From the NCBI GenBank assembly GCA_903856295.1, contig CAIOBP010000114.1, positions 1-54,558 of the forward strand: DNA of 54,558 nt, given 5' to 3'. Position numbers and translations under genes: made by a program. A model generated the notes under the pieces. It did no database searches. It was not told where the DNA came from and saw nothing but the letters and a program-made list of their open reading frames with translations. This DNA comes from an uncultured Rhodospirillales bacterium (lineage in GTDB: Bacteria; Pseudomonadota; Alphaproteobacteria; Azospirillales; Azospirillaceae). Below are positions 4,959-26,597 of this stretch, one piece after another (within the stretch, counting starts at the first letter, position 1; each line of letters starts with the position of its first letter).

Positions 4959-7900
4959 GCCGGTTTCCTCCGGGTCCGCAGCCGCACCTTCAGCCGGTCC
5001 ATGGCCAGATAGATCACCGGGGTGGTGTAGAGGGTGAGGACTTGGCTGAGCAGCAGCCCGCCGACGATGGCGATGCCCAGCGGCCGGCGCAGCTCGCCGC
5101 CGGTGCCCTGGTCGAAGGCCAGCGGCAGCGCGCCCAGCAGCGCCGCCATGGTGGTCATCATGATCGGCCGGAAGCGCAGCAGCGAGGCCTGAAAGATCGC
5201 CTCGCGCGGCGCCATGCCGTGTTCGCGCTCGGCCTGGAGCGCGAAGTCGATCATCATGATCGCGTTCTTCTTGACGATGCCCATCAGCAGCACGATGCCG
5301 ATCAGCGCCACCAGCGACAAGTCGGTGCCGGTCACCATCAGGGCGAGCAGCGCCCCGACCCCGGCCGAGGGCAGGGTGGTCAGGATGGTGAAGGGGTGGA
5401 TGGTGCTCTCATAGAGCACGCCGAGCACGATGTAGATCACCACCACCGCCGCCAGGATCAGCAACGGCTCCGAGCGCAGCGACGAGCGGAACTCGGCGGC
5501 GTCGCCGCTGTAGCCGCCGCTGACCGTGTTGGGCATGCCGAGCCGTTCGCGGGCGCCGTCGATGGCGCTCATGGCCTCGCCGAGCGAGGCGCCGGGCGCG
5601 AGGTTGAAGCTGATGGTCACGGCGGGAAACTGCGCCTGATGGGTCACCGCCAGCGGCACCCGGGCGCGCCTGGCGGTGGCGAAGGCCGAGAGCGGCACCA
5701 GCCCGCCGGCGGTCGAGCGGACGTAAATGGCGTTCAGGGTCTCGGGGCCGAGCTGATAGCCGGGCGTGACCTCCAGGATCACATGGTACTGGTTGACCTG
5801 GGTGTAGATGGTCGACACCTGCCGTTGGCCGAAGGCGTCGTAGAGGGTGTCGTCGATGGCCTGCACCTGGATGCCCAGCCGCGAGGCCTGATCGCGGTCG
5901 ATGCTCAGCCGGACCTCGGAGCCCTCGGTTTCCTGATCCGAGGCGACGTCGGCCAGCATCGGCAGGGCGGTGATCGCGCTTTGCAGCCGGGGCGCCCAGG
6001 CGACCAGCTCCTCGCCGTCGACGTCCATCAGCGTGTACTGGAACTGGGTGCGGCTGGTGCGGGCGCTGATCTGAATGTCCTGCACCGCCTGCATGTGGAC
6101 TTCGGCGCCGGGGACCGCCGCCATGGTCCGGGCCAGCCGGGTGATCACGGTCTCGACGCCGGCCCGGCCCTTGCGCGGTTTCAGCACCAGGGTCAGGTGG
6201 CCGGTGTTGGGGGTGGTGTTGACGGTGCCGGCGCCGAGAAACGAGGCGACTCCGGCGATGTCGGGATCGCGCAGTGCCAACTCGGCCACCCGCTCCTGGA
6301 GCGCGCTCATGGCGCCGAAGGAAATGTCGTCGCGGGCGTCGAGGGTGGCGGTGATCAGGCCGGTGTCCTGGGCGGGCAGAAAGCCCTTGGGCACCACCAT
6401 GTAAAGCCCGATGGTGGCCACCAGCGTCGCCACCGCCAACCACAGAGTCGCGGTCTCGTGGCGCAGCACGCACTCCAGGGTCCGGCCGTAGGCCCGGCGC
6501 AGCGCCGCGAACAGGCCGTGCTCGGATTCCCCCTCATGGGCGTTGGCGCGGCTGAGGATGTGACCGCACATCATCGGGGTCAGGGTCAGCGACACCACCG
6601 CCGAAATCACCACCGCCAGGGTCAGGGTCAGGGCGAATTCGCGGAACAGCCGGCCGACGATGCCGGTCATGAACAGCAGCGGAATGAACACCGCCACCAG
6701 CGACACGGTCAACGAGACGATGGTGAAGCCGATTTCCCGCGCGCCCTTGAAGGCGGCGGCCATCGGCGTTTCGCCCTGCTCGATGTAGCGGACGATGTTT
6801 TCGATCATCACGATGGCGTCGTCGACCACGAAGCCGGCCGAGATGGTCAGGGCCATCAAAGAGAGATTGTCGAGGGTGAAGCCGCACAGCGACATGGCGC
6901 CGAAGGTGCCGATCAGCGACAGGGGCAGCGCCACGCCGGGAATGATGGTCGCCGGCACCGACTTCAAAAACAGGAAGATCACCAGGATCACCAGCCCGAT
7001 GGTCAGGGCCAGGGTGAACTGGACGTCGGCCACCGAGGCGCGGATGGTCACGGTGCGGTCGGACAGCACCGTGATGGCGATTCCCGCCGGCACCGTCTGG
7101 ATGATTTGGGGCAGCGTCTCCTTGATGCGGTCGGCGGTGGCCACGATGTTGGCGCCGGGCTGGCGCTGGATATCGACGATCACCGCCGGGCGGCCGTCAC
7201 GCCAGCCGGCGACCCGGGAATTTTCCACTCCTTCCACCACCTCGCCGACATCGCGCACCCGCACCGAGGCGCCGTTGCGGGTGGCCAGGATCAGGCCGCG
7301 ATATTGTTCGGGATCGCCGAGCTGGTCGTTGGTGGCGATGGTTTCCGAGAGCTGGGGGCCGTCGAAGCTGCCCTTGGGCAGGGAGACATTGGCCTTGGAG
7401 AGCGCGCCGCGGACATCCTCCAGGCTCAGCCCGTAGCCCGAGAGCCGGGCGGGGTCGATGCGGATGCGGAAGGCCGGGCGCTGGCCGCCCTGAATCTGCA
7501 CCCGGCCGACGCCGCCGATCTGGCTGAGCTTCTGGGCGAGCAGGGTGTCGGCGACGTCGTTGACCTTGGTGATCGGCAGTGTCGTCGAGGACAGGGCCAG
7601 GGTCATGATCGGCGGGTCGGCCGGGTTGACCTTGGAATAGGTCGGCGGGTTGGGCAGATTGGCCGGCAGCACGCCGCGCGCGCTCTGGATCGCGGCCAGC
7701 ACATCCTCGGAGGCGACGTCGATGTTCTTGCCGAGATCGAACTGGAGGGTGATAGCGCTCAGCCCGTAGGAACTGGTCGAGGTCATCGATTGCAGCCCCG
7801 GCATCAGCCCGAACTGGCGTTCCAGCGGCGTCGTCACCAGCGAGGCGATGGTGTCGGCGCTGGCGCCGGGCAGCTGAGTCGTGACCTGGATGGTCGGAAA

Positions 7901-8023
7901 ATCGACCTGGGGCAGGGCGGAGACCGGCAGCAGCCGGTAGCCCAGCAGGCCGATCAGCACCACCGCGAACGCCAGCAGCCACGTCGCCACCGGCCGGGCG
8001 ATGAACGGAGCCGAGATGTTCAT
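4955..8023 (-). CDS. mdtB: RND multidrug efflux permease, MdtB-like
   Basis: Second RND inner-membrane exporter, 1022 residues. The early region (RPVATWLLAFAVVLIG, PVSALPQVDFPTIQVTTQLPG) and the NPPTYSKVNPADPPIMTLAL stretch match MdtB-type proteins. The relay segment GFVVDDAIVMIENIVRYIEQG is intact. Large periplasmic loops follow TM1 and TM7 as usual. It overlaps the adaptor gene upstream and the mdtC-like gene downstream by 4 bases each, so the three pump proteins should be made in a fixed ratio. Paired, non-identical RND permeases in one operon are the signature of MdtBC-type heteromeric pumps. Confidence 0.95.
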   Translation of the reverse strand: MNISAPFIARPVATWLLAFAVVLIGLLGYRLLPVSALPQVDFPTIQVTTQLPGASADTIASLVTTPLERQFGLMPGLQSMTSTSSYGLSAITLQFDLGKNIDVASEDVLAAIQSARGVLPANLPNPPTYSKVNPADPPIMTLALSSTTLPITKVNDVADTLLAQKLSQIGGVGRVQIQGGQRPAFRIRIDPARLSGYGLSLEDVRGALSKANVSLPKGSFDGPQLSETIATNDQLGDPEQYRGLILATRNGASVRVRDVGEVVEGVENSRVAGWRDGRPAVIVDIQRQPGANIVATADRIKETLPQIIQTVPAGIAITVLSDRTVTIRASVADVQFTLALTIGLVILVIFLFLKSVPATIIPGVALPLSLIGTFGAMSLCGFTLDNLSLMALTISAGFVVDDAIVMIENIVRYIEQGETPMAAAFKGAREIGFTIVSLTVSLVAVFIPLLFMTGIVGRLFREFALTLTLAVVISAVVSLTLTPMMCGHILSRANAHEGESEHGLFAALRRAYGRTLECVLRHETATLWLAVATLVATIGLYMVVPKGFLPAQDTGLITATLDARDDISFGAMSALQERVAELALRDPDIAGVASFLGAGTVNTTPNTGHLTLVLKPRKGRAGVETVITRLARTMAAVPGAEVHMQAVQDIQISARTSRTQFQYTLMDVDGEELVAWAPRLQSAITALPMLADVASDQETEGSEVRLSIDRDQASRLGIQVQAIDDTLYDAFGQRQVSTIYTQVNQYHVILEVTPGYQLGPETLNAIYVRSTAGGLVPLSAFATARRARVPLAVTHQAQFPAVTISFNLAPGASLGEAMSAIDGARERLGMPNTVSGGYSGDAAEFRSSLRSEPLLILAAVVVIYIVLGVLYESTIHPFTILTTLPSAGVGALLALMVTGTDLSLVALIGIVLLMGIVKKNAIMMIDFALQAEREHGMAPREAIFQASLLRFRPIMMTTMAALLGALPLAFDQGTGGELRRPLGIAIVGGLLLSQVLTLYTTPVIYLAMDRLKVRLRTRRKPA

Positions 8024-9222
8024 CGCGGGCCGCCATTGTGTTCACCGTCTTTGTGGTCTTCGGCCTTGCGCTCCCCGGCTTTATGCTCGCCGCCCTCGGG
8101 GCGTCGGGCGTTGACGGTTTTGCTGCCGTTCTGGAGCTTGGCCACCCCGTCGACCGCCACCAGTTCGCCCTCGGCGAGGCCGCTCTCGATCACCGCCTCG
8201 CCGGCTTCCTGAGGTCCCAGGGTCACCGGCCGCAGCTCCGCCGTCTGGTCGGGCTTGAGCAGGAAGACGTAGGGCCCCTGAGGGCCGCGCAGCACCGAGG
8301 CCGCCGGCACCACCAGGCCGGCGGCGCGGGTGGTCAGCAGTAGGCGGATATTGACGAACTGGCCGGGCCACAGCCGGCGCTCGGCATTGGCGAACACCGC
8401 CTTGAGCTTGATCGTGCCGGTGGTCTGGTCGACCTGATTGTCCATCAGCTCCAGGGTGCCGCGTTCCAGCACCGTGCGGTTGCCGGAATCGGTGACCAGC
8501 ACCGGCAGCGGCTCCCGGTTCGGGCGGTGCATTTCCTCGTTGATCGCGCTCAGGCTTTGCTGGGGCAGGGTGAAGACCACCGAGATCGGCTGCATCTGGG
8601 CGACCATCAGCAGGCCGGTGGCGTCGCTGGCGCGCACGATGTTGCCGCGATCGATCTGGCGGATGCCGGTGCGGCCGTCGATCGGCGAGGCGATCACGGT
8701 GTAGCTGAGCATGGCGCGGGCATTGTCGATGCTCGCCTGATCGACCCGCACCGAGGCTTCCATCTGCTTGAGCAGGGCGCGGGCGGCGTCGACGGTCTGG
8801 CCGGCGATGCGGTTGCCGAGTTCGAGATAGCGCCGGAGGTCGAGGCGGGCCAGCTCGAGCTGGGCTTCGTCCTTGGCCTTGGCCGCCAGGGCCTGATCGA
8901 GCTGGGCCTGATAGGTGCGGCCGTCGAGGCGGACCAGCGCGTCGCCGGCCTTCACCTCCTGGCCTTCCTTCACCGCCCAGTCCACCAACTCGCCGTCGAC
9001 CCGGCTGCGAATGGTGACGCTGTTGTAGGCCTGAACCGTGCCCAGCCCGTCGAGATAGATCGGCACGTCCTTGCGCTGGACGGGCGCCGGCACCACCGGC
9101 ACCGGCCGTCCCTCGCCGGCCCGCCGTCCGCCCTGGTCCTGGGGCGCCTGGGCCGGCCGCGATGACCAGAAGGCGGCGCCCGCGACCGCCACCAAGAGAC
9201 CGATGATCACAAAGCGCCGCAT
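8020..9222 (-). CDS. mdtA: RND periplasmic adaptor (membrane fusion protein), MdtA-like
   Basis: Links the MdtBC-like permeases to the outer-membrane channel. From the chosen ATG at 9222 the product is 400 residues: an N-terminal hydrophobic anchor (FVIIGLLVAVAGAAFW), a barrel-sandwich/lipoyl half (GELVDWAVKEGQEVKAGDAL, near residue 75-95), a coiled-coil hairpin, the second half (SPIDGRTGIRQIDRGNIV), and a beta-barrel domain. A GTG start at 9249 would add nine residues; the ATG is preferred because a GGACGGGACG stretch lies just upstream and the anchor then begins at residue 4. The C-terminus is an unusual His/Lys/Glu-rich tail of about 25 residues. First gene of the efflux operon. Confidence 0.93.
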   Translation of the reverse strand: MRRFVIIGLLVAVAGAAFWSSRPAQAPQDQGGRRAGEGRPVPVVPAPVQRKDVPIYLDGLGTVQAYNSVTIRSRVDGELVDWAVKEGQEVKAGDALVRLDGRTYQAQLDQALAAKAKDEAQLELARLDLRRYLELGNRIAGQTVDAARALLKQMEASVRVDQASIDNARAMLSYTVIASPIDGRTGIRQIDRGNIVRASDATGLLMVAQMQPISVVFTLPQQSLSAINEEMHRPNREPLPVLVTDSGNRTVLERGTLELMDNQVDQTTGTIKLKAVFANAERRLWPGQFVNIRLLLTTRAAGLVVPAASVLRGPQGPYVFLLKPDQTAELRPVTLGPQEAGEAVIESGLAEGELVAVDGVAKLQNGSKTVNARRPEGGEHKAGERKAEDHKDGEHNGGPR

Positions 9223-9318
9223 GAGACGTCCCGTCCTAGTTGAACCCACAGTCGGTCCGGTCGCACCCTACCCTGGAGTCGGCCGGGTTTGAAGGTATTA
9301 CACGCGACTGGGAGTATG

Positions 9319-9343
9319 AAACATGCGCGCAGCGGACATGTTT
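9319..9343. promoter_or_regulatory. Candidate operator in the mdtA/GGDEF divergent spacer
   Basis: A 7-base perfect inverted repeat AAACATG ... CATGTTT with an 11-base spacer lies about 100 bases upstream of the mdtA-like start, in the 268-base spacer shared with the diguanylate cyclase gene. Its symmetry fits a dimeric repressor site for the efflux operon. No regulator gene lies next to it, so this is inference only. Confidence 0.3.
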
Positions 9344-9490
9344 TAGCTGCGGGCATTTTTATTGGTCCCAAATTTTTCGGTATCGCGATGCCGCGGAAAA
9401 TGGCACAATTACAACCATAAATTTGACGCGATTTGTCGCCATGGGCACCACCCCCGGCGGAACGCGGCGCAGCAGTAGCGAGAGCGTCCG

Positions 9491-10393
9491 ATGACCGAGT
9501 CTCGTCCAAGAATTCTGGTGGTCGACGATATTACTGCGAACATCAAAATTCTCGGCGCCATCCTGCGGCAGGACCACGAAATTCTCGTCGCCAGCAACGG
9601 TGCCGAAGCGCTGGAGATCGCGCTGGCCGAGTTGCCCGACGTGATTCTCCTCGACGTCATGATGCCGGACATGGATGGTTACGAGGTCTGCCGGCGGCTG
9701 AAGAACGATCCCCGGACCGTCGGGATTCCGGTGATCTTCATTTCGGCGATGAACGAGGTCGAGGACGAAGCGCGCGGCCTGGAGGTCGGCGGGCTCGACT
9801 ACATCGTCAAGCCGGTCAATGCCCCGATCGTCAGGGCCCGGGTGCGGATTCATCTGGAGCTGAAGCGCCAGCGCGAGCTGTTGCAGCGGATCTCGATGAT
9901 CGACGGTCTGACCGGCATCGCCAACCGCCGCCAGTTCGACGAAGTGCTGGCGAGCGAGTGGCGGCGCTGCCATCGCAGCGCCTCGTATTTGTCGCTGATC
10001 ATGGTCGATGTCGATTTCTTCAAGCATTACAACGATCAGTACGGGCATCTCGCCGGGGATGAATGCCTGAAGGCCGTGGCTGAGGCGATGGCCGGGCAGG
10101 TCCGCCGCTCCGCCGACCGGCTCGCCCGCTTCGGCGGCGAGGAGTTCGCCTGCCTGCTTCCCGACACCGGCGCCAACGCGGCCTACGCCATGGCCCAGCG
10201 GCTGCGGGAGGCGGTGTCGGAGCTTGGCATCGCTCATGCCTGTTCGGCGGTGAGCGAGCACGTTACCATCAGTCTCGGTGTCGCCAGTCTGATTCCCGAG
10301 AACGGCGACGGCGCTTTCCGTTTGATCGATCTGGCCGACCGCGGCCTCTATCACGCCAAGCAGCATGGTCGCAATCAGGTGGCGGTGATATAG
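9491..10393 (+). CDS. Response regulator diguanylate cyclase (REC-GGDEF)
   Basis: Makes cyclic di-GMP under phosphorelay control. The 300-residue protein has a receiver domain (1-120) with acidic pair Asp12-Asp13, phosphoacceptor Asp55 (LLDVMMPD) and Lys107 (VKP). A GGDEF domain (135-300) follows, with an intact GGEEF signature at 215-219, so it should be catalytically active. The RxxD inhibitory I-site (RSAD, 206-209) sits five residues before it, implying product feedback. It resembles a one-REC version of PleD. No kinase gene is adjacent; the nearest is the PAS kinase at 12483-14477 on the other strand. The start ATG follows an AGCGAGAGCGTCCG stretch. Confidence 0.93.
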   Translation: MTESRPRILVVDDITANIKILGAILRQDHEILVASNGAEALEIALAELPDVILLDVMMPDMDGYEVCRRLKNDPRTVGIPVIFISAMNEVEDEARGLEVGGLDYIVKPVNAPIVRARVRIHLELKRQRELLQRISMIDGLTGIANRRQFDEVLASEWRRCHRSASYLSLIMVDVDFFKHYNDQYGHLAGDECLKAVAEAMAGQVRRSADRLARFGGEEFACLLPDTGANAAYAMAQRLREAVSELGIAHACSAVSEHVTISLGVASLIPENGDGAFRLIDLADRGLYHAKQHGRNQVAVI

Positions 10394-19066: not shown

Positions 19067-20563
19067 CTACTGGACCTGATTATCGTCCCGATCTCTGGAT
19101 TTCTCGTCTTCGTCCTCGTCCTCCCCGGAAGGGTCGCTGGAATTTTTGTCGGTCCGGACTTTGTTGATCTTCGTTGGTTTCTTGCCGCCGGCCGGGCGGC
19201 CATCGATATTGACGACGCGGCAGGAGCGGCTGGTGTGGCTCTCGCAGGCCGCCGCCGCTTCTTCTTCGGCGTCGCTGGCGGTGTCCCGGCCGCTGCGCCA
19301 GCCATAGGCGCCATCGGGGGCGACGGCGAAGGCCCGGTGCGAGCGCGCGGCGAGATAAGCCTCGAAGGCCAGCCGGCCCTTGGCCGACAGTTCGGGCGGC
19401 GTGGCGTCGGTGTCTTCCGGGGTATCCTCGGGGTCGTCTTCCGGGGCCACCTCGGGATCGTCTTCCGGGGCCACCTCGGGATCGTCTTCCGGGGCCACCT
19501 CGGGATCGTCTTCCGGATCCTCCTCGGGCTCGGGTTCCGTCTTCGCCTGGGGCGTCGGGCGCGGCGCCGTCGGCGCGACGGTGTTTGCCGGCGCGGCGGC
19601 GTTCGGCAGCGGCGGCAGGCCGGCGACCGTCGCGACATAGGCTTCGTCGGTCCGGGCCTTGAAGCTGTCGTAGGAGATCCAGCCGAAGCCGTTTTCGCCC
19701 CAGCTGTCGCCCCAGGAGTTGATCAGCCGGAAGGCGCGCTTGCGGTCGTCGTAGCCGACCACGACCATGGCGTGACCGCCGCCGTCGCGGCCCATCTCCT
19801 TGAATACGGTGTCGCCGGTCAGCTCGGTGAAGGCGTCGTTGACGTACATGCCGATCACCACCGGGTTGCCCTTGGCGATCTGCTCCTTGATGGCGCTGAG
19901 GCTGGTCAGGTCGACCGTCCGCCAGCTCTGGATGCGCCACTGTCCGGCCTCGCGCTTGACGTCGGCCGGCGGCCGGCGCGAGCAGCTGGTGTCGCGATAG
20001 GGAAAGCGCGACATCGGCACCGTGCCGACGTCGCGCAGCAGGGTCAGGGCGTCGGCGATGTCGGAGCCGCTGTCGCAGCCTTCCGAGGAATCGGCGATCT
20101 GGTTGTAGACGAAGGACGGGCTGAGCAGGATCGGGTCGCGGTCCTTGCTCCGGCCCTGGGCGCGGTTGGCGTAGTAGCCGCGCATGGCGTAGCCCACCGA
20201 CCAGCCGACGCACGAACTCTGATCGCCCTGGTCCTTGGGCGGCGGAAACAGCGCCGACAGGTCGGCGGCGGATGGCAGCAGCATGCCGCGAGTCGGCGAG
20301 GTGCGCTCGTGCTGCTGGTATTTCTCGGCGGGCTCGAATTTCAAACCACGCGGAAAGACGCGGCGGTGACCGGCCTGGGCGGAAGCGGGGGAGGACGGCG
20401 CGGCGGCCTCGGCGCCTTCGGTGCCGTAGGCGACCTCGGCCCGCGCCCCGTCTGTGGCCGGCAGGGCCAGCCAGAGCAGCGCCAGCAGCGGCGTCAGCCG
20501 GAGCAGGGTCGCCGCTTGTGCGGACGTGCCGCCTCTGTTTTCCCGTTCCAGTCTGGTCGACAC
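19067..20563 (-). CDS. Secreted papain-like (C1) cysteine peptidase with acidic repeat linker and DUF4189-like tail
   Basis: 498 residues from a GTG at 20563, chosen for its GGGAG upstream and because a signal peptide (LLRLTPLLALLWLALPATDGARA) then starts near residue 20. The C1 domain spans about 100-315, with oxyanion Gln112, catalytic Cys118 (DQGDQSSCVGW), His264 (GGGHAMVVVGYDD) and Asn282 (INSWGDSWG). All four are intact, so it should be active in the periplasm or outside the cell. A Pro/Glu/Asp linker (342-386) contains three perfect 24-base repeats coding for PEVAPEDD. The C-terminal part (390-460) resembles DUF4189 with two cysteines, followed by a highly charged tail. Divergent from the HdeA-like gene. 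The frame is open further upstream, but that part lacks coding character. Confidence 0.88.
   Translation of the reverse strand: MSTRLERENRGGTSAQAATLLRLTPLLALLWLALPATDGARAEVAYGTEGAEAAAPSSPASAQAGHRRVFPRGLKFEPAEKYQQHERTSPTRGMLLPSAADLSALFPPPKDQGDQSSCVGWSVGYAMRGYYANRAQGRSKDRDPILLSPSFVYNQIADSSEGCDSGSDIADALTLLRDVGTVPMSRFPYRDTSCSRRPPADVKREAGQWRIQSWRTVDLTSLSAIKEQIAKGNPVVIGMYVNDAFTELTGDTVFKEMGRDGGGHAMVVVGYDDRKRAFRLINSWGDSWGENGFGWISYDSFKARTDEAYVATVAGLPPLPNAAAPANTVAPTAPRPTPQAKTEPEPEEDPEDDPEVAPEDDPEVAPEDDPEVAPEDDPEDTPEDTDATPPELSAKGRLAFEAYLAARSHRAFAVAPDGAYGWRSGRDTASDAEEEAAAACESHTSRSCRVVNIDGRPAGGKKPTKINKVRTDKNSSDPSGEDEDEDEKSRDRDDNQVQ
19443..19514. repeat. Three perfect 24-bp tandem repeats inside the peptidase gene
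   Basis: Three head-to-tail copies of a 24-base unit (19443-19466, 19467-19490, 19491-19514), with degenerate partial units on both sides, encode the PEVAPEDD linker of the C1 peptidase. The repeats keep frame, so copy-number change by slippage would only alter linker length. Confidence 0.9.
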
Positions 20564-20779
20564 CCTGTTTCTCCCGTCGTGCGCCGTGGTCGTCGCGGCG
20601 ACAGGATCGTGTGTGAGCCGGTAAAGCGCAAGCATCAAGGGGGTGCGGCGCAGTCGCGCGGGATCATTCCTGCCTTGACGCTTTTGTGGGGAACACGTCA
20701 GCTTGCTGTCTCCGCCGCGAACGGCGGCGGCCCGGCCGGGAGCCGGGTCGGTCTTCCACCCCGGATGAGGAACAGGACG

Positions 20780-21136
20780 ATGGGAAAGAATATGTTGGCC
20801 GGTGCTGTACTGGCGGTGGCGCTGGGTTTGTCGGCCGGTCAGGTCCGGGCCGGCGGTGTCATCGATGACAATACCATCGATTTCTCGAAATTGACTTGCG
20901 ATGAACTGATGAATGAGATTCGCAACGACATCAAGAAGGGCAAGTCGCCCGAAGAAGCCGCTGGTATGAACATGATGATGGCCGCGATGTGGATCGACGG
21001 TTATCTGAGCCATGAATCCGGAGATACCCGGACGACGCTCAGCTGGCTGGGCGATGTCATGACCGCCATCGGCGACAACTGCGATAAGTCGCCCAAGACC
21101 CCGCTGCTGAAGATCGTCAAGTCGTCGCTGAAATAG
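20780..21136 (+). CDS. HdeA-like periplasmic acid-stress protein
   Basis: 118-residue exported protein. The signal peptide (NMLAGAVLAVALGLSAGQVRA) is cut near residue 24. The mature part matches the HdeA/HdeB fold: FSKLTCDELM with Cys40, the central AAMWIDGYLSHESG helix, and a second Cys101 (IGDNCDKSP) that should form the family disulfide. HdeA proteins are small ATP-independent chaperones that protect periplasmic proteins at low pH. The ATG at 20780 has AGGAACAGG before it; an in-frame ATG at 20765 is an alternative. Divergent from the secreted peptidase across about 216 bases. Confidence 0.85.
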   Translation: MGKNMLAGAVLAVALGLSAGQVRAGGVIDDNTIDFSKLTCDELMNEIRNDIKKGKSPEEAAGMNMMMAAMWIDGYLSHESGDTRTTLSWLGDVMTAIGDNCDKSPKTPLLKIVKSSLK

Positions 21137-21256
21137 CAAGCTCTCCGAAATGACGGGCCTGCCGTGTCAGGCCGGCGGAAAAAGCGCCATGGTATTCCGG
21201 AACGGAAACGGGTACTTTGACGCGTTCCGTGCAACTTCTTTGTGGAGGACCGTTTC

Positions 21257-21325
21257 ATGAGCAAGCAGACGAAGCCCGGCATGCCGGTGAGCACCCCCGT
21301 TCGCGCCGGCAAGGGCCGTTCGTGA
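21257..21325 (+). CDS. Putative 22-residue peptide
   Basis: A short frame with an excellent ribosome site (TGGAGGA, 21243-21249, seven bases before the ATG) encodes a 22-residue, basic, Pro/Gly/Lys-rich peptide beginning MSKQTKPGMPVSTPV. It lies 120 bases after the HdeA-like gene and in the same direction. No family is recognised. It could be a real small protein or a leader peptide; the convergent CgeB-like gene lies downstream, so there is nothing obvious for it to lead. Confidence 0.4.
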   Translation: MSKQTKPGMPVSTPVRAGKGRS

Positions 21326-21443
21326 TATGCCGCCACCGGGCGGGACGGCTTTCGGCCATCCGGCCCGGTGCCCGGTTCCGCTTCCGCGCGGTGTCGCGCG
21401 TGTCATTCCAAAGGGTTTCGTTATTTCGGGCCAAAGGGTTTCG

Positions 21444-22622
21444 TTATCTCGGGTCGAGGCATCCCGGTGCCACGCTCTTGATCCAGCTCAGCAGGCGGGT
21501 CAGGCGATGGTTCCAGCTGTGACCGGAGAGGAAGGCGGCGGTGCCGTTGGCCGCCCGGTTCGCCAGGGCGTCGTCCCCGGTCAACGCTTCGCCGACACAG
21601 GCCGCCGCCGCCGCCGGGTCGGGGGATAGCGCCAGGAGCGAGTCGGCGCCGGTCGCGGCGAGCAGCCAGGGCGCGGCGACGGTGGCGGCGACGGCGCCAT
21701 GGGCCATGGCCTGGAACGGCCGCTCGTGGGACTCGTAGTAGGGCGGCAGCAGGTTGAGCACGAGCTTCGACCGCGCCATCATCTTGAACAGCTCGGTTAC
21801 CGGCCGCTCGCCCAGGGTTTCCACTGGCGATCCGGCGGGCAGCAGGGCGTCCCAGCCTCGCCCGACCACGGTGACCGGCAGTCCCTCGGCGGCGCGCAGG
21901 AAGTCCAGCCGCACCCGGCTGCGCAGATAGGTGTCGACCGCCCAGAAGTAGGTCTGCACCATCTCGATCGGCGCCTGGGGATCGTTCAGAACCTCGACCA
22001 CAATCTCGTGCAGGGCGCGGCGCGGCGCGGCGACGTGGGCGGCCAGCATGGTTTCCAGCCGGTCGCGGGCCTCGGCGCCATGGTCGATCCAGCGGGCGCG
22101 GGTCAGGGCGGGGTCTTCGCGCAGGGTACCGGCCAGCAGCACCGGAATATCCCGCTCGCTCCAGGGCGTCGGCTGGCCGCCGCCCGGCGCGGCGGCGTGG
22201 GGCAGATGCAGCAGCGGCAGGCCGTCGCGGATGTGGCCGCGGCAGAAGCGCAGGTTGCTCGGAGTCGGAAAGGTCGCGATCAGGCGCGGCACTTCGCTGC
22301 GAAGGGTCTGGTGGTGGTAGACCGGATGATCGACGAAGTAGATGAACAGCGGCGCCTTGGTTTCCTGGTAGAAGCCCGGCCCCTGGCCCGGCTTGGGCAC
22401 GCCATAGCCGTTGAGGCTGAGGAACAGCGCCACCGGTTCGCGCCGGATCAGCGCCACCGTGCGGCCGACCGCGTCCGGCAACCGCAGGTCGACGATCTCG
22501 GTGCGCAGGCCGCGTGTCCGGAACGCCGCCGCCCAGTGGTCGACCATGGTGTTGAGGCTGTCGAACTCCGAGTGGCCCTTGTAGAGGATCACCACCGGCT
22601 GACCGCCGCCAGAGGCGCTCAT
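21444..22622 (-). CDS. CgeB-like glycosyltransferase (GT-B fold)
   Basis: 392-residue protein, last of a three-gene operon. It starts with VVILYKGHSEFDSLNTMVDHWAAAFRTRGL, a GT-B first strand and loop, and has the segment PLFIYFVDHPVYHHQTL common in proteins of the CgeB/glycosyl-transferase-for-dystroglycan-like group. The C-terminal donor half has VTVVGRGWDALLP and NLLPPYYESHERPFQAMAHGAVAA, in which the Glu/Phe/Met cluster takes the place of the usual E-x7-E motif. Some related proteins work near flagellin glycosylation loci, but no flagellar gene is in this window. It overlaps the preceding gene by 4 bases. Confidence 0.72.
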   Translation of the reverse strand: MSASGGGQPVVILYKGHSEFDSLNTMVDHWAAAFRTRGLRTEIVDLRLPDAVGRTVALIRREPVALFLSLNGYGVPKPGQGPGFYQETKAPLFIYFVDHPVYHHQTLRSEVPRLIATFPTPSNLRFCRGHIRDGLPLLHLPHAAAPGGGQPTPWSERDIPVLLAGTLREDPALTRARWIDHGAEARDRLETMLAAHVAAPRRALHEIVVEVLNDPQAPIEMVQTYFWAVDTYLRSRVRLDFLRAAEGLPVTVVGRGWDALLPAGSPVETLGERPVTELFKMMARSKLVLNLLPPYYESHERPFQAMAHGAVAATVAAPWLLAATGADSLLALSPDPAAAAACVGEALTGDDALANRAANGTAAFLSGHSWNHRLTRLLSWIKSVAPGCLDPR

Positions 22623-23860
22623 GATGCCCCCCGGTCGGAGAAGAGGGGCTTCAGGCCGGGACCGAGTCCGGTCAGCGCCATCAGATCGTTGGAGCGGGTT
22701 TTCTCGCGGGCGGTCTGGGGCAGGGCGTGCGCGCTCTTGAAGAAGCCGGGCAGGTGGAAGCGCGCGGGCAGCACCGTGTTGACGTTGGCGATGTCGTCGC
22801 CATCGCGGCGCAGGATGGCGATCGCCCGGTAGAGCGCGACCTGATCGTGGGTCCAGAGCGGCCCGGTTTCCAGGAGCTTCGCCCGGACATACCCGCTGAC
22901 CAGTCCGAAGAACCGGTTGGCCGCCGGGCCGGGGTGGGCGCCGACCACCGAGGCGTCGACCAGCAATTGCGGCCAGATTTCCCGGGTCCGGATGTGGGCC
23001 AGCGGAAAAGCCCGGATCATTTTCAGCACCTCGGCGCTGCCCGGGGCGAAGGCGCTGTCGATATCGAACAGGATCAGCGGCCGCCCGGCCATTTCAAGCA
23101 GCGTTTCGGCGAGCAGGAAGCGGACCGAACAGCAATATTCCGGCAGCCGGGTCCCCGCGTAGCCGGTGGCGGCGATGGTCAGGCCGGGGTGGCGGCGCGC
23201 CAGTTCGCCGGCCAGTTGCCGCGCGCCGTCATCGGGATTGACGATGCCGATGAACAGCGCGTGCTCGGGACCGGCATGGCGATAGAAGCCCTCGGCCAGC
23301 CGTTCGGCATAGGTGCAAAAGTACAGGGAGTCGCCGAAAGCCGCGCACAGGGCGGCGGCGGCGCTCCAGTCTCCGGGGTGGAGGAGGGGGGGCGGCGGCG
23401 TGATACCGCCGGTCGCGGGCGTCCACTCCAGGGGCTCGAACAGGAACGCCGCCGCCACCAGCTTGGTCAGACTCGGCAGGGGGAGCGATTCGCGGGGATG
23501 CTGTGCGGCCAGCTCGAGCAGCAACCGCACGCCATCGCGCAGCATGGCGAGGCCGGAGTCGTGCTCGAAGCGCAAAAAGTGGGCGAGGCCGCCGGCACAG
23601 CGCAGGGCGGCGGAAAAGGCGCTGGCGGTGCCGAAGCCCCGGCACAGTCCGAGCACGGTTTCGGCCTGCCCGCTGGCGATCAGCTGGCTGCACACCTCGA
23701 ACGCCAGGGCGGTGCCGGAGCCGCCCCGGTGGTTGCGATAGGTGAAAATCTCGTTCAGCCCCGCAAGATTGCCGTCACGCGCCATCCGCAGGCCCAGCTC
23801 GAGGAAGGCCGGTTCGTCCGGTGGTTCCGCCTTGACGCGGGCGATCAGCGCGTCATGCAT
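22619..23860 (-). CDS. Putative GT-A-like glycosyltransferase with helical N-terminal domain
   Basis: 413 residues. The N-terminal 150 residues are helical and TPR-like (ELGLRMARDGNLAGLNEIF; FLRFEHDSGLAMLRDGVRLLLELAAQ). The rest suggests a nucleotide-sugar transferase: strand-rich HALFIGIVNPDD, then LILFDIDSAFAPGS with a DxD-type metal motif, and WTHDQVALYRAIAILRR, where a His-Asp pair is common in GT-A enzymes. No signal peptide is seen. It sits between the phosphatase gene (8-base overlap) and the CgeB-like gene (4-base overlap). The glycosyltransferase call rests on these weak motifs and on context, so hypothetical protein is the safe alternative. Confidence 0.6.
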   Translation of the reverse strand: MHDALIARVKAEPPDEPAFLELGLRMARDGNLAGLNEIFTYRNHRGGSGTALAFEVCSQLIASGQAETVLGLCRGFGTASAFSAALRCAGGLAHFLRFEHDSGLAMLRDGVRLLLELAAQHPRESLPLPSLTKLVAAAFLFEPLEWTPATGGITPPPPLLHPGDWSAAAALCAAFGDSLYFCTYAERLAEGFYRHAGPEHALFIGIVNPDDGARQLAGELARRHPGLTIAATGYAGTRLPEYCCSVRFLLAETLLEMAGRPLILFDIDSAFAPGSAEVLKMIRAFPLAHIRTREIWPQLLVDASVVGAHPGPAANRFFGLVSGYVRAKLLETGPLWTHDQVALYRAIAILRRDGDDIANVNTVLPARFHLPGFFKSAHALPQTAREKTRSNDLMALTGLGPGLKPLFSDRGAS

Positions 23861-24380
23861 GGGGCGACGCCTGGGCCGGGGGCGACGCCTGGGCGATGCC
23901 GGAGGCGAGCGCGCCGCTGCCGGTCAGGGCGGCCCGGTGCCAGCCGAGGTAGGCGCGCTTGATCGCGCCGTTCAGCCGCAGCAGCGCCTCGCCATGTTCG
24001 AGAATCAGCATGTTGGGGGACATGGCGGGGCGTATCTTCGAGATATGGGAAAAGGCCCGCTCGGGCGCCATGCCGTGGCGAATCAACACCAGAATGGCCA
24101 CGGCGGTCGAACGGGATACTCCCGCCACGCAATGAACCAGAATCCGGTCGTCGCGCTGGAATCGCGAGGCGAATTCGAGAATCCGCGCAATGGCGTCGCG
24201 GGATGGCGCCGGTTGCGGCCCCGCCAGGTCTTCGAGGTCGAAAAAACATTCCTGGTGGTAGGTTCCGGAGTCGGGCGGGCGTCGGTGATCGTCGGGATCG
24301 AACAGGCCGATGGTCTTGGTCGCCCACTCCTCGCGGAGTCTGACGCTGTCGTGCAAGCCGCTGATTTGAATCTGAAACAT
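23853..24380 (-). CDS. Dual-specificity/tyrosine-type protein phosphatase
   Basis: 175-residue single-domain cysteine phosphatase, starting at the ATG at 24380 (GGGGAG site just upstream). The active-site loop is HCVAGVSRSTA with nucleophile Cys84 and Arg90. Asp residues in FFDLEDLAG (48-51) are candidates for the general acid. The short Ala/Pro-rich C-terminus carries a small duplicated segment (ASPPAQASP). It heads an operon in which all three genes overlap. Candidate substrates are phosphoproteins or phospho-sugars linked to the downstream glycosyltransferases. The adjacent TTCGCA palindromes lie 187-257 bases upstream. Confidence 0.85.
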   Translation of the reverse strand: MFQIQISGLHDSVRLREEWATKTIGLFDPDDHRRPPDSGTYHQECFFDLEDLAGPQPAPSRDAIARILEFASRFQRDDRILVHCVAGVSRSTAVAILVLIRHGMAPERAFSHISKIRPAMSPNMLILEHGEALLRLNGAIKRAYLGWHRAALTGSGALASGIAQASPPAQASPHA

Positions 24381-24711
24381 GCCGTCTCCCCTGTCCGATT
24401 GTCCCACCGGCCGCGCGTCGGGGTCAAGGGGAGGGGAAGAGCCGGAGCCGGTGGTGCCGCCGGCTTGGCGTCCCGTATCCTGGGAGGGTCTAAGGGCATC
24501 AAGTTTGGCGTGCCGAAGCATTCGTAATAATTCTGTCAGTCGTGATGCCAATAGAATCGATTGAATTTCGCAGGTGCGAAGGGTGTTGTATATTTACTCG
24601 ATACACATTCGCAGTCAATCGATGTATGACTTGCGAACCACACTTTGGAAACGGGGGCGATCGCTAGTGATCCGCCATTGATCGAGTATCGTCATTGCAA
24701 GGGAATGATCA
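24381..24711. promoter_or_regulatory. Divergent regulatory spacer with four TTCGCA half-sites
   Basis: This 331-base spacer separates the phosphatase operon (minus) from a 56-codon gene (plus). It is AT-richer than its surroundings from about 24525 onward. It holds TTCGCA-GG-TGCGAA (24567-24580) and a wider pair of the same half-sites (24608-24613 and 24632-24637), plus a TACTCGAT ... ATCGAGTA pair (near 24595 and 24683). Repeated inverted half-sites between divergent genes suggest a shared regulator. No known regulator's consensus was recognised. Confidence 0.45.
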
Positions 24712-24882
24712 ATGACTGAAGTGTCATCTGCTTATCAGGTGCAGAGGTTCCAGCTCGCGCACCCTTCCCAATCCTCGAAAGAGGTTCGGATCGCCCATCA
24801 GACGGCGGAGGTGGCCACGGCCGCCGCGCCCAGTCGACCGGTCAATCCCAATCTGGGCACGAAGCTCGACATCAAGGTCTGA
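24712..24882 (+). CDS. Putative 56-residue small protein
   Basis: Short frame with an AAGGGA ribosome site 7-12 bases upstream of the ATG. The product is 56 residues, soluble, beginning MTEVSSAYQVQRFQLAHPSQ and ending NPNLGTKLDIKV. The middle is Ala/Thr/Val-rich. No signal peptide, cysteine or membrane segment is seen. It is divergent from the phosphatase/glycosyltransferase operon and shares its regulatory spacer. Not recognised; it could be a secreted peptide, an adaptor or a substrate of the neighbouring enzymes, but none of these is shown. Confidence 0.5.
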   Translation: MTEVSSAYQVQRFQLAHPSQSSKEVRIAHQTAEVATAAAPSRPVNPNLGTKLDIKV

Positions 24883-24991
24883 CACAAGAATATCTGACAC
24901 CGGAACATCCGACGCCAGCGCGCCCAGGGTGGTCCGATCCTGGGCGCGCCGAAGTCTCGTCGCTTGGCGGTTTTTGCGTCAGAGTGTTCGG

Positions 24992-25150
24992 TCATGCCGC
25001 CTTGGAGACGGGGTGGGATTGGTTTGCGGCCCGGTGCGCCCGCGGCGTGGCCGGCGGCGCTTCATGGCCGATGTCTGCGAAGACCAACTCGGTCGCGGTG
25101 GCGGTTTGGAGCAGGGCGTCCAGGCGTCCCAGGAACGAAGTGCGGGTCAT
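24992..25150 (-). CDS. Putative 52-residue small protein
   Basis: A minus-strand frame with an AAAGGAG site seven bases upstream of the ATG encodes 52 residues: an amphipathic N-terminal helix (SFLGRLDALLQTATATELVF), then DIGHEAPPATPRAHRAANQ and a short basic tail. Codon choice is GC-rich like its neighbours, and the ribosome site is among the best in the window. The gene faces the 56-codon gene convergently, 109 bases apart. Function unknown. Confidence 0.5.
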   Translation of the reverse strand: MTRTSFLGRLDALLQTATATELVFADIGHEAPPATPRAHRAANQSHPVSKAA

Positions 25151-25458
25151 GGTATGCTCCTTTGCGTGGGTCTGTCGGCGAATGCGCCTGATGTCAGATA
25201 TAGGTCGTGAAGGTGAGCGGCTGTGAGCGGTCAGGCATGCGCATGCGGGGATACCAGGGAAAAGGGCCGGGATGGCTATGACTGGGGCCTGTGATTTCGG
25301 AATGTTTTACGCAAGTTCAATGTTCTATGCGTTGCCGGGCGGGATTCCGGGGCAGCTATGCGTTTTTAGTATGATGTGCCGCGCCCCCTTGCCAGGGGGT
25401 GTTGCCGGTGCTATGAGCCTGTGGTCGCATCCGGTGCTGGTCCGGGTGGCGCTGGTCA
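25151..25458. other. Non-coding spacer upstream of tRNA-Gly
   Basis: About 308 bases without a convincing gene. It contains the ribosome site of the 52-codon gene at its left edge and a candidate tRNA promoter at its right (25389-25417). A loose direct repeat (AATGTTTTACGCA / AATGTTCTATGCG, about 25301-25335) is visible. Nothing else is recognised. Confidence 0.5.
25389..25417 (+). promoter_or_regulatory. Candidate sigma70-type promoter for tRNA-Gly
   Basis: TTGCCA (25389-25394), a 17-base spacer and TATGAG (25412-25417) lie about 40 bases before the mature tRNA-Gly end. The same TTGCCA with a 17-base spacer occurs before tRNA-Trp. Spacing and hexamers fit a housekeeping promoter, but this is pattern matching only. 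Confidence 0.4.
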
Positions 25459-25532
25459 GCGGGTGTAGCTCAATGGTAGAGCAGAAGCCTTCCAAGCTTA
25501 CGACGAGGGTTCGATTCCCTTCACCCGCTCCA
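25459..25532 (+). tRNA. tRNA-Gly (anticodon TCC)
   Basis: A 74-base cloverleaf: acceptor GCGGGTG pairs with CACCCGC, D-arm GCTC/GAGC, anticodon loop CTTCCAA giving TCC, T-loop TTCGATT, and an encoded CCA end (25530-25532). It reads GGA, and possibly GGG, codons. Confidence 0.95.
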
Positions 25533-25856
25533 ACTTCAGGCTTTCTCATCCGATCCTGATCTGTGGGCATGGCAGGTCTGCGCCACGATTGTCGAATCGT
25601 TTGACAATTCGCAGCTCAGGAGGATGCCTTACGTAATATTGGTGGCTGGCGAAGCCGTAAGGTAAAACGACATGGTGTTGCCGCTTATACCGAGACGCTG
25701 AAATCGGTTGTACTCTGTTCCTCGCAGAACAGGGCGCGCGGGTGGCTCCGGGGTATGAGTTGCTTTCGGTGCCGTGGTGTACAGTGGGCTTTACGGGGCG
25801 GGCGGCTCTCTGATTCGGCGCTCCCGGATACCCGGTTTTCAGCGGAGGGGGTTTTC
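25533..25856 (+). other. Leader region upstream of rquA
   Basis: 324 bases between tRNA-Gly and rquA. Three dyads are visible: ATTGTC ... GACAAT (near 25587-25609), CCTTACG ... CGTAAGG (25627-25633/25656-25662) and CTGTTC-N6-GAACAG (25715-25732). The first could end tRNA-Gly transcription although no T-tract follows. The third is the best operator candidate for rquA. No gene is supported here; the upstream extension of the rquA frame to 25755 has no ribosome site. Confidence 0.4.
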
Positions 25857-26597
25857 GTGTCGGTTGAAACTATCATTCCGGGCGAGACGATGGTCGTCGA
25901 TCGGGGCTGTCTGGGTGCCGAGACGGGCGCCGAGGACCGGGTTCCGAATTATCTCAACGACATTTATCGTTGGGCCTATCTCAATCCGCTGGCGCTGGCC
26001 ATCTTCAATCACCGGCCGATCGTGTCGGCGATTCTGTGGGGCAATTACGGCCGGCTGTTCCGGGCGGTGCTGGAAGAGGTGCGCCCCGGCGACCGGACGA
26101 TGCAGTTGGCGGCGGTCTATGGCCCGTTTTCGGCCGACCTGATGGAGGCTCTGGGGCCGGCGGGCAGCCTCGATCTGATCGAGGTGGCGCCGATTCAGGT
26201 CGAGATGACCCGCAAGAAGCTGGAAGCCTACAAGAGCGCCCGCGTGCTGCTCTGCGATGCCGCGAATCCGCCCCAGGGTCCCTACGATCTGGTGATCAGC
26301 TTTTTCTTGCTCCATGAGGTTCCCGAGGATTTCAAGGCGCGGATCGTCGATGCCGCGCTCAGCCGGCTCAAGCCGGGCGGGCGGGCGGTGTTCGTCGATT
26401 ATCATGGCCCCGAGCGCTGGCATCCGCTGCGGCCGGTGATGGTCAAGGTCTTCGACTGGCTCGAGCCGTTCGCCAAGATATTGTGGTCGAGGGAGATCGA
26501 CAGCTATGCCGGTTCGGGCGCGCCCGATGTGGTTTGGCGCAAGCGGACCTATTTCGGCGGGCTCTACCAGAAACTGGTGGCCGAACGGCGGGGGTGA
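25857..26597 (+). CDS. rquA: Rhodoquinone biosynthesis enzyme RquA
   Basis: RquA converts ubiquinone to rhodoquinone, the low-potential quinone that lets complex II run as fumarate reductase under low oxygen; the family uses S-adenosylmethionine as amino donor rather than as methyl donor. The product is 246 residues from a GTG at 25857, preceded by a GGAGGGGG site. Diagnostic segments are VPNYLNDIYRWAYLNP, LWGNYGRL, the altered cofactor motif MQLAAVYGPFS (83-92) instead of a canonical GxGxG, FFLLHEVPEDFK (149-160), DYHGPERWHPLR (181-192) and YFGGLYQKLVA at the C-terminus. It lies between tRNA-Gly and tRNA-Trp, alone. Confidence 0.9.
   Translation: MSVETIIPGETMVVDRGCLGAETGAEDRVPNYLNDIYRWAYLNPLALAIFNHRPIVSAILWGNYGRLFRAVLEEVRPGDRTMQLAAVYGPFSADLMEALGPAGSLDLIEVAPIQVEMTRKKLEAYKSARVLLCDAANPPQGPYDLVISFFLLHEVPEDFKARIVDAALSRLKPGGRAVFVDYHGPERWHPLRPVMVKVFDWLEPFAKILWSREIDSYAGSGAPDVVWRKRTYFGGLYQKLVAERRG

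Follow-up and report, generated by a model that had tools for sequence, protein, structure and literature searches.

A predicted phosphatase and glycosyltransferase operon beside a divergent small gene in an uncultured Rhodospirillales bacterium

Genes at the locus

Positions 21,444 to 24,882 of a 54,558-nucleotide stretch of DNA from an uncultured Rhodospirillales bacterium of the Azospirillaceae (GenBank assembly GCA_903856295.1, contig CAIOBP010000114.1) carry three overlapping minus-strand genes, for a predicted dual-specificity phosphatase and two glycosyltransferase-like proteins (P0002 and P0003), and a divergent plus-strand gene for a small protein (P0004). The stretch, referred to here as the window, spans the whole of contig C114 in a draft genome of 4.0 Mb. 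An original prediction made from the letters alone had proposed that these four genes might form an undescribed system. Comparison with related genomes showed that the recurring unit is the pair of P0002-type and P0003-type genes alone, with neither the phosphatase nor the small gene in conserved linkage. The four frames were confirmed where they had been placed, and the features of the locus are as follows.

23853-24380, minus strand: predicted dual-specificity phosphatase, 175 amino acids (aa), Pfam DSPc, HCx5R motif
22619-23860, minus strand: P0002, 413 aa, helical front resembling tetratricopeptide repeats (TPR) and a back half resembling type A glycosyltransferases (GT-A), with FDID and W..DQ..LY motifs
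21444-22622, minus strand: P0003, glycosyltransferase of type B (GT-B), CgeB-like, 392 aa, Pfam Glyco_trans_1_2
24712-24882, plus strand: P0004, small protein of 56 aa with a YjfB-like C-terminal tail, VNPNLGTKLDIKV; homologues and silent-biased divergence
24381-24711, no strand: intergenic spacer of 331 bases between the divergent starts, one promoter-like site per strand
21408-21453, no strand: 23-base repeat in two copies at the downstream end of the operon

Re-reading of the frames also bore out the operon and its overlaps, 8 bases between the phosphatase and P0002 (23853-23860) and 4 bases between P0002 and P0003 (22619-22622). The best ATG for the phosphatase, whose start had been left unplaced, is at 24380 on the minus strand. 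The good ribosome site claimed for the small gene is present as AAGGGA, 7 bases 5' of the P0004 ATG. The promoter-like sites of the spacer, which are consensus matches only, lie at 24567-24594 on the plus strand and 24427-24398 on the minus strand; these two sites within 24300-25000 compare with 0.2 expected from shuffles.

The transferase pair and the phosphatase

Of the two transferase genes, P0003 is the more readily classified. It passes the curated cut-off of Pfam Glyco_trans_1_2 (expectation value (E) 2e-13, 50.9 bits against 25), the property it shares with CgeB-like glycosyltransferases, from which it differs in lacking a spore context and in being one of six matches to P0003 in its genome. 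The CgeB name itself is the label of the original prediction. Matches to P0003 occur in 13 of 59 genomes of the family, and its closest relatives are 31-49% identical. No match was found among plasmids, or when the genome contigs were scanned with P0003 as the lone query. The closest relative (49%, locus L170) lies downstream of genes that appear gyrA-like and coaD-like by eye. Gene calls around relatives came from a simple script, and names given by eye rest on inspection. The 19-kb L170 locus held no match to the phosphatase or P0004 at E 1 and none to P0002 below E 0.005; an 86-residue stretch about 6.6 kb away, where P0002 reaches E 0.005, was taken as a chance match.

Another relative of P0003 is in locus L056 (5484-6873, minus strand, and 7113-10011; G001:C6). 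Four tandem Gly/Ala-rich small proteins (87-aa and 105-aa frames), ending DNTSIGSININS/HS, adjoin this relative together with genes of the GNAT and radical SAM types, and the locus looks like a peptide-modification cluster.

P0002 has no Pfam match even with the limit at E 10. Its closest relative, 53% identical, is found in a congener (G003:C39) and contains one in-frame TGA. With more distant relatives included, the family extends to 28 of the 59 family genomes, its own among them. A search of 385 genomes sampled from the class (G003 cannot have been one of them) gave matches at E 1e-10 in two, its own and a partial match in G401. Three matches of 25-26% identity, over about half of the length, occur in Azospirillum plasmids. 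The description of the front as TPR-like draws on a 27% identical relative in G001, which matches TPR_14 below the cut-off (E 0.042), and on a 26% match in Azospirillum sp. B510 annotated 'tetratricopeptide repeat protein'. An FDxD motif together with W..DQ..LY is a pattern of GT-A transferases. A GT-A-like back half is a reasonable but unproved assignment for P0002, because these motifs, of which the first reads FDID in P0002, are kept in its distant relatives in G001 and G004. Residues 201-353 align with those relatives in hhalign at E 1.6e-6 and probability 90; this is the fair comparison, as aligning two alignments that both contain P0002 is circular.

A P0002-type gene adjoins a P0003-type gene in three of four congeners. 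In G001:C46 and G004:C139 the order is as in the window and both pairs have a 4-base overlap. In G003:C39 the order is swapped, there is no overlap, the P0002-type frame carries the TGA, and the transferase shares 23% identity with P0003 across 300 residues. In the remaining congener, the gene neighbouring the transferase of G002:C265 is on the other strand and of another kind.

A ROS/MUCR regulator gene stands about 0.8 kb upstream of the G003:C39 pair (L055, 6420-10181).

The reading frame at 23853-24380 encodes a predicted dual-specificity phosphatase. Its translation passes the curated cut-off of Pfam DSPc (E 3.4e-9, 37.1 bits against 33.5) and contains the HCx5R active-site motif as HCVAGVSR, and its best sequence match in the PDB is a dual-specificity phosphatase family protein (E 3.6e-6). 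It matched four PHROGs families, two of them named dual specificity phosphatase. It shares the catalytic domain and motif with other DSPc phosphatases but differs in that the window's copy heads a glycosyltransferase operon. Among the papers searched, none combined the terms dual-specificity phosphatase, glycosyltransferase, operon and alphaproteobacteria.

Relatives of the phosphatase are common, occurring in 46 of the 59 family genomes, its own included, and no match was found in the four congeners at E 1e-3. Their neighbourhoods were compared in 29 loci besides the window's own, each from a different genome, so that 29 of the 45 other matching genomes were covered. At E 1e-3, no member of the P0002 or P0003 families was found within 1.5 kb in any of the 29. 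One open reading frame in these loci, running off the end of L075, matched the tail expression and was taken as spurious.

The small gene and its tail

P0004 has two homologues, both in G003 (C164 and C43), with tblastn E-values of 2e-7 and 7e-7 within eight loci. Both start like MSGIPxSH...AYQTAHP and finish in the tail. In all three pairwise comparisons, the proportion of silent differences in frame (pS) exceeds that of amino-acid-changing differences (pN), at 0.58/0.34, 0.74/0.34 and 0.74/0.24, measured over 45 codons comprising the first 28 and last 17 with the length-variable middle omitted. Finding homologues by protein similarity somewhat favours silent bias. The off-frame control is without such bias, and there the two other frames give pN above pS in six of six comparisons, once narrowly (0.41/0.39). 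Because of the homologues and the silent-biased divergence in frame, a chance reading frame was ruled out, and sequence comparison identifies P0004 as a real gene under selection. The original prediction, which would have fallen had the small frame shown no purifying selection, therefore stands on this point.

The homologues sit on other contigs with other neighbours. That in G003:C164 has a gene with weak GT-A likeness about 340 bases away (Anp1 E 0.039, below the cut-off), and that in G003:C43 is near a hemerythrin-domain gene. More broadly, none of eight loci with tail-bearing genes contained relatives of the three enzymes at E 1e-3. A search of 99 genomes with P0004 found its own genome only, although the homologue-bearing G003 was among them; absence of the small gene is thus weak evidence, as short proteins are easily missed. 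A single-sequence structural model gave two helices followed by no structure, with a predicted local distance difference test score (pLDDT) of 67, and was unused as evidence.

Locus L115 (G003:C164) contains two divergent small genes, 1470-1718 on the minus strand and 1982-2200 on the plus strand, both with YjfB-like ends, the second ending NKVDIRV.

The likeness of P0004 to YjfB is confined to its C-terminal part. Residues 36-55 match positions 41-57 of the Pfam YjfB_motility profile, its last 17 positions, at E 0.017, and fall below the cut-off (15.6 bits against 27). The N-terminal part is unmatched, and no YjfB match over the cut-off was obtained in 39 genomes searched. One source calls YjfB an 'uncharacterized small protein' and assigns it to a flagellar sub-module (PMC11607428). 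P0004 differs from it in this respect also, as no flagellar genes stand beside it among the genes named in the window.

Searching with a 22-column tail model, built on four tails, gave ten places at E ≤0.05, covering all five genomes of the genus; 25 other genomes gave none (best 0.10). The four tails behind the model account for four of these places, and the weakest of the six new ones has E 0.03. The tails, which include the variants VNGNLG, ANANLG and VNPALG, end short reading frames. In the class sample of 385 genomes, where no hits came from congeners, a strong score was seen in the own genome alone, with two others at 0.003 and 0.009. In G001 a 108-aa tail-bearing protein gene (L116, 8320-8646; G001:C68) shares 4 bases with an ATE-type transferase gene and is about 3.3 kb from a MotB gene with MotA behind, both Pfam-tested. 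By eye, the tail-gene neighbours in G002 and G004 look like those of G001.

A FlaG gene seen by eye beside the tail gene in G000:C29 was dropped, as it had no Pfam match even at E 10.

A tail common to many small proteins of one genus and to the motility-associated YjfB family is the more durable point, and it offers a defined motif for mutation.

Interpretation and alternatives

The explanation we would place first, with belief and doubt about evenly balanced, is that the three enzyme genes form a glycosylation operon specific to this lineage, into which the phosphatase was recruited, and that the YjfB-tailed small gene beside it is independent. P0002 would probably hold a target protein by its helical front and transfer a sugar by its GT-A-like half, and P0003 may add a further sugar or act on the same target. 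The phosphatase, common in the family and without fixed partners in the loci seen, would have been placed upstream in this lineage. Its probable role would be to dephosphorylate the same target, or a phosphorylated precursor, so that two modifications are coupled. A motility-type gene in its own right, the small gene would have no more than the spacer in common with the operon. The four genes probably owe their proximity to ordinary local grouping rather than forming a new four-part system. If the coupling is true, a phosphatase coupled to two glycosyltransferases would mean two protein modifications wired in one bacterial operon, which we judge to be uncommon.

Several points weigh against this explanation. 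P0002 is only distantly related to the P0002-type genes of G001:C46 and G004:C139 (22-24% identity, pairwise E about 1e-4 to 1e-5), which came to light through inspection of the surroundings of P0003 relatives and were absent from the matches listed by the family search with P0002. The AlphaFold model of P0002 (mean pLDDT 39.2) was too poor to confirm a GT-A fold. The single PDB sequence match of P0002 up to E 1 is a thaumatin-like protein (E 0.7). The genomes are drafts in which neighbours past contig ends are invisible, limiting the neighbourhood tests. Lastly, one of six phosphatase loci viewed more widely (L183, G012) has a GT9-like gene downstream (Pfam E 5.9e-6), together with a downstream gene that looks like a GNAT/acetyltransferase by eye. 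L183 may mean that the link between phosphatase and glycosyltransferase is more than a single accident.

Another proposal is that the phosphatase has no functional relation to the two transferases and is just co-transcribed with them. Its relatives have varied neighbours, and the transferase pair is kept without it in three of four congeners. The 8-base overlap with P0002 suggests coupled translation, however, and we consider the proposal rather unlikely. We give a similarly low standing to the idea that the operon serves to glycosylate a flagellar protein, flagellin or another, with the YjfB-tailed protein as the flagellar link. FlmG of Caulobacter, another alphaproteobacterial protein, is described as a flagellin O-glycosyltransferase with a TPR front and a GT-B half (PMC7591256), and P0002 likewise joins a helical, probably protein-binding front to a predicted transferase half. 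Two flagellin matches in the genome exceed the Pfam cut-off, YjfB is placed in a flagellar sub-module by the passage cited above (PMC11607428), and in G001 the motB and motA genes have a tail-bearing relative in their vicinity. P0002 departs from FlmG in having no Pfam TPR or glycosyltransferase match and a GT-A-like rather than GT-B back half, so that it does not belong to the FlmG class of TPR front and GT-B back. The operon is also on a different contig from both flagellin genes, and the portions read around flagellin genes in G000, G001 and G003 contain no P0002 or P0003 relative at E 1e-2. In G001 a TPR-GT41, FlmG-like gene already lies about 3 kb from the flagellin gene. This distance from both flagellin genes and the FlmG-like gene in G001 weaken the flagellar explanation.

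The four-gene system of the original prediction, with the small protein as a substrate or regulator of the phosphatase and two glycosyltransferases and expressed from the shared spacer, now appears distinctly unlikely. Divergent genes with a promoter-like site for each strand between them would suit it, as would the reality of the small gene. So would the P0003 relative of G001:C6, which follows a radical SAM gene near the four Gly/Ala-rich small proteins on the other strand, the position of the G003:C164 homologue about 340 bases from the weak Anp1-like gene, and a 68-aa frame with a related ending, NRGRNLNIVA, in L061 (10414-10620; G002:C188), about 8.8 kb from a P0002 relative. On the other hand, 19 of 21 loci around P0003 relatives lack a small frame with such an ending; the two exceptions are L056, with its Gly/Ala-rich proteins, and L166, where one 75-aa frame lies about 8 kb away. 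The empty result in the eight tail-gene loci and the absence of a phosphatase match from the four congeners also count against it. Co-occurrence of the four genes in the same order was not seen in the genomes compared, and a conserved system was set aside as the main explanation since neither the phosphatase nor the small gene retains its neighbours across the loci seen. The expectation that homologues are neighbours elsewhere failed for phosphatase and transferases (0 of 29 loci) and for small gene and transferases (0 of 8), and held for the transferase pair. Nothing was found tying the small protein to the enzymes as substrate or regulator, and its tail also occurs on small proteins encoded in different surroundings. 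Even less probable, in our view, is that otherwise different small proteins of the genus share the tail PVNxNLGxxLxIxV as a common tag, perhaps for flagellar export or recognition by a shared enzyme, with one of them being the dedicated target of the adjacent operon.

Upstream of the flagellin gene in G001:C2 (L182, 2961-9132), the TPR-GT41 gene is accompanied by a gene with a weak O-FucT match below the cut-off.

Two other origins were also set aside. An anti-phage defence system was rejected as none of the four proteins matched PADLOC models at E 0.01, and a phage origin as the phosphatase alone among the four had a PHROGs match. An Rfam search of 20800-26000 gave a tRNA as its sole match. 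Beyond the downstream end of the operon, 19067-21139 on the minus strand is a frame for a papain-family cysteine protease with a DUF4189 match below the cut-off, and it contains a 24-base tandem repeat at 19412-19539. Between protease and operon, 20807-21109 on the plus strand matches the HdeA/HdeB family (E 3.5e-6).

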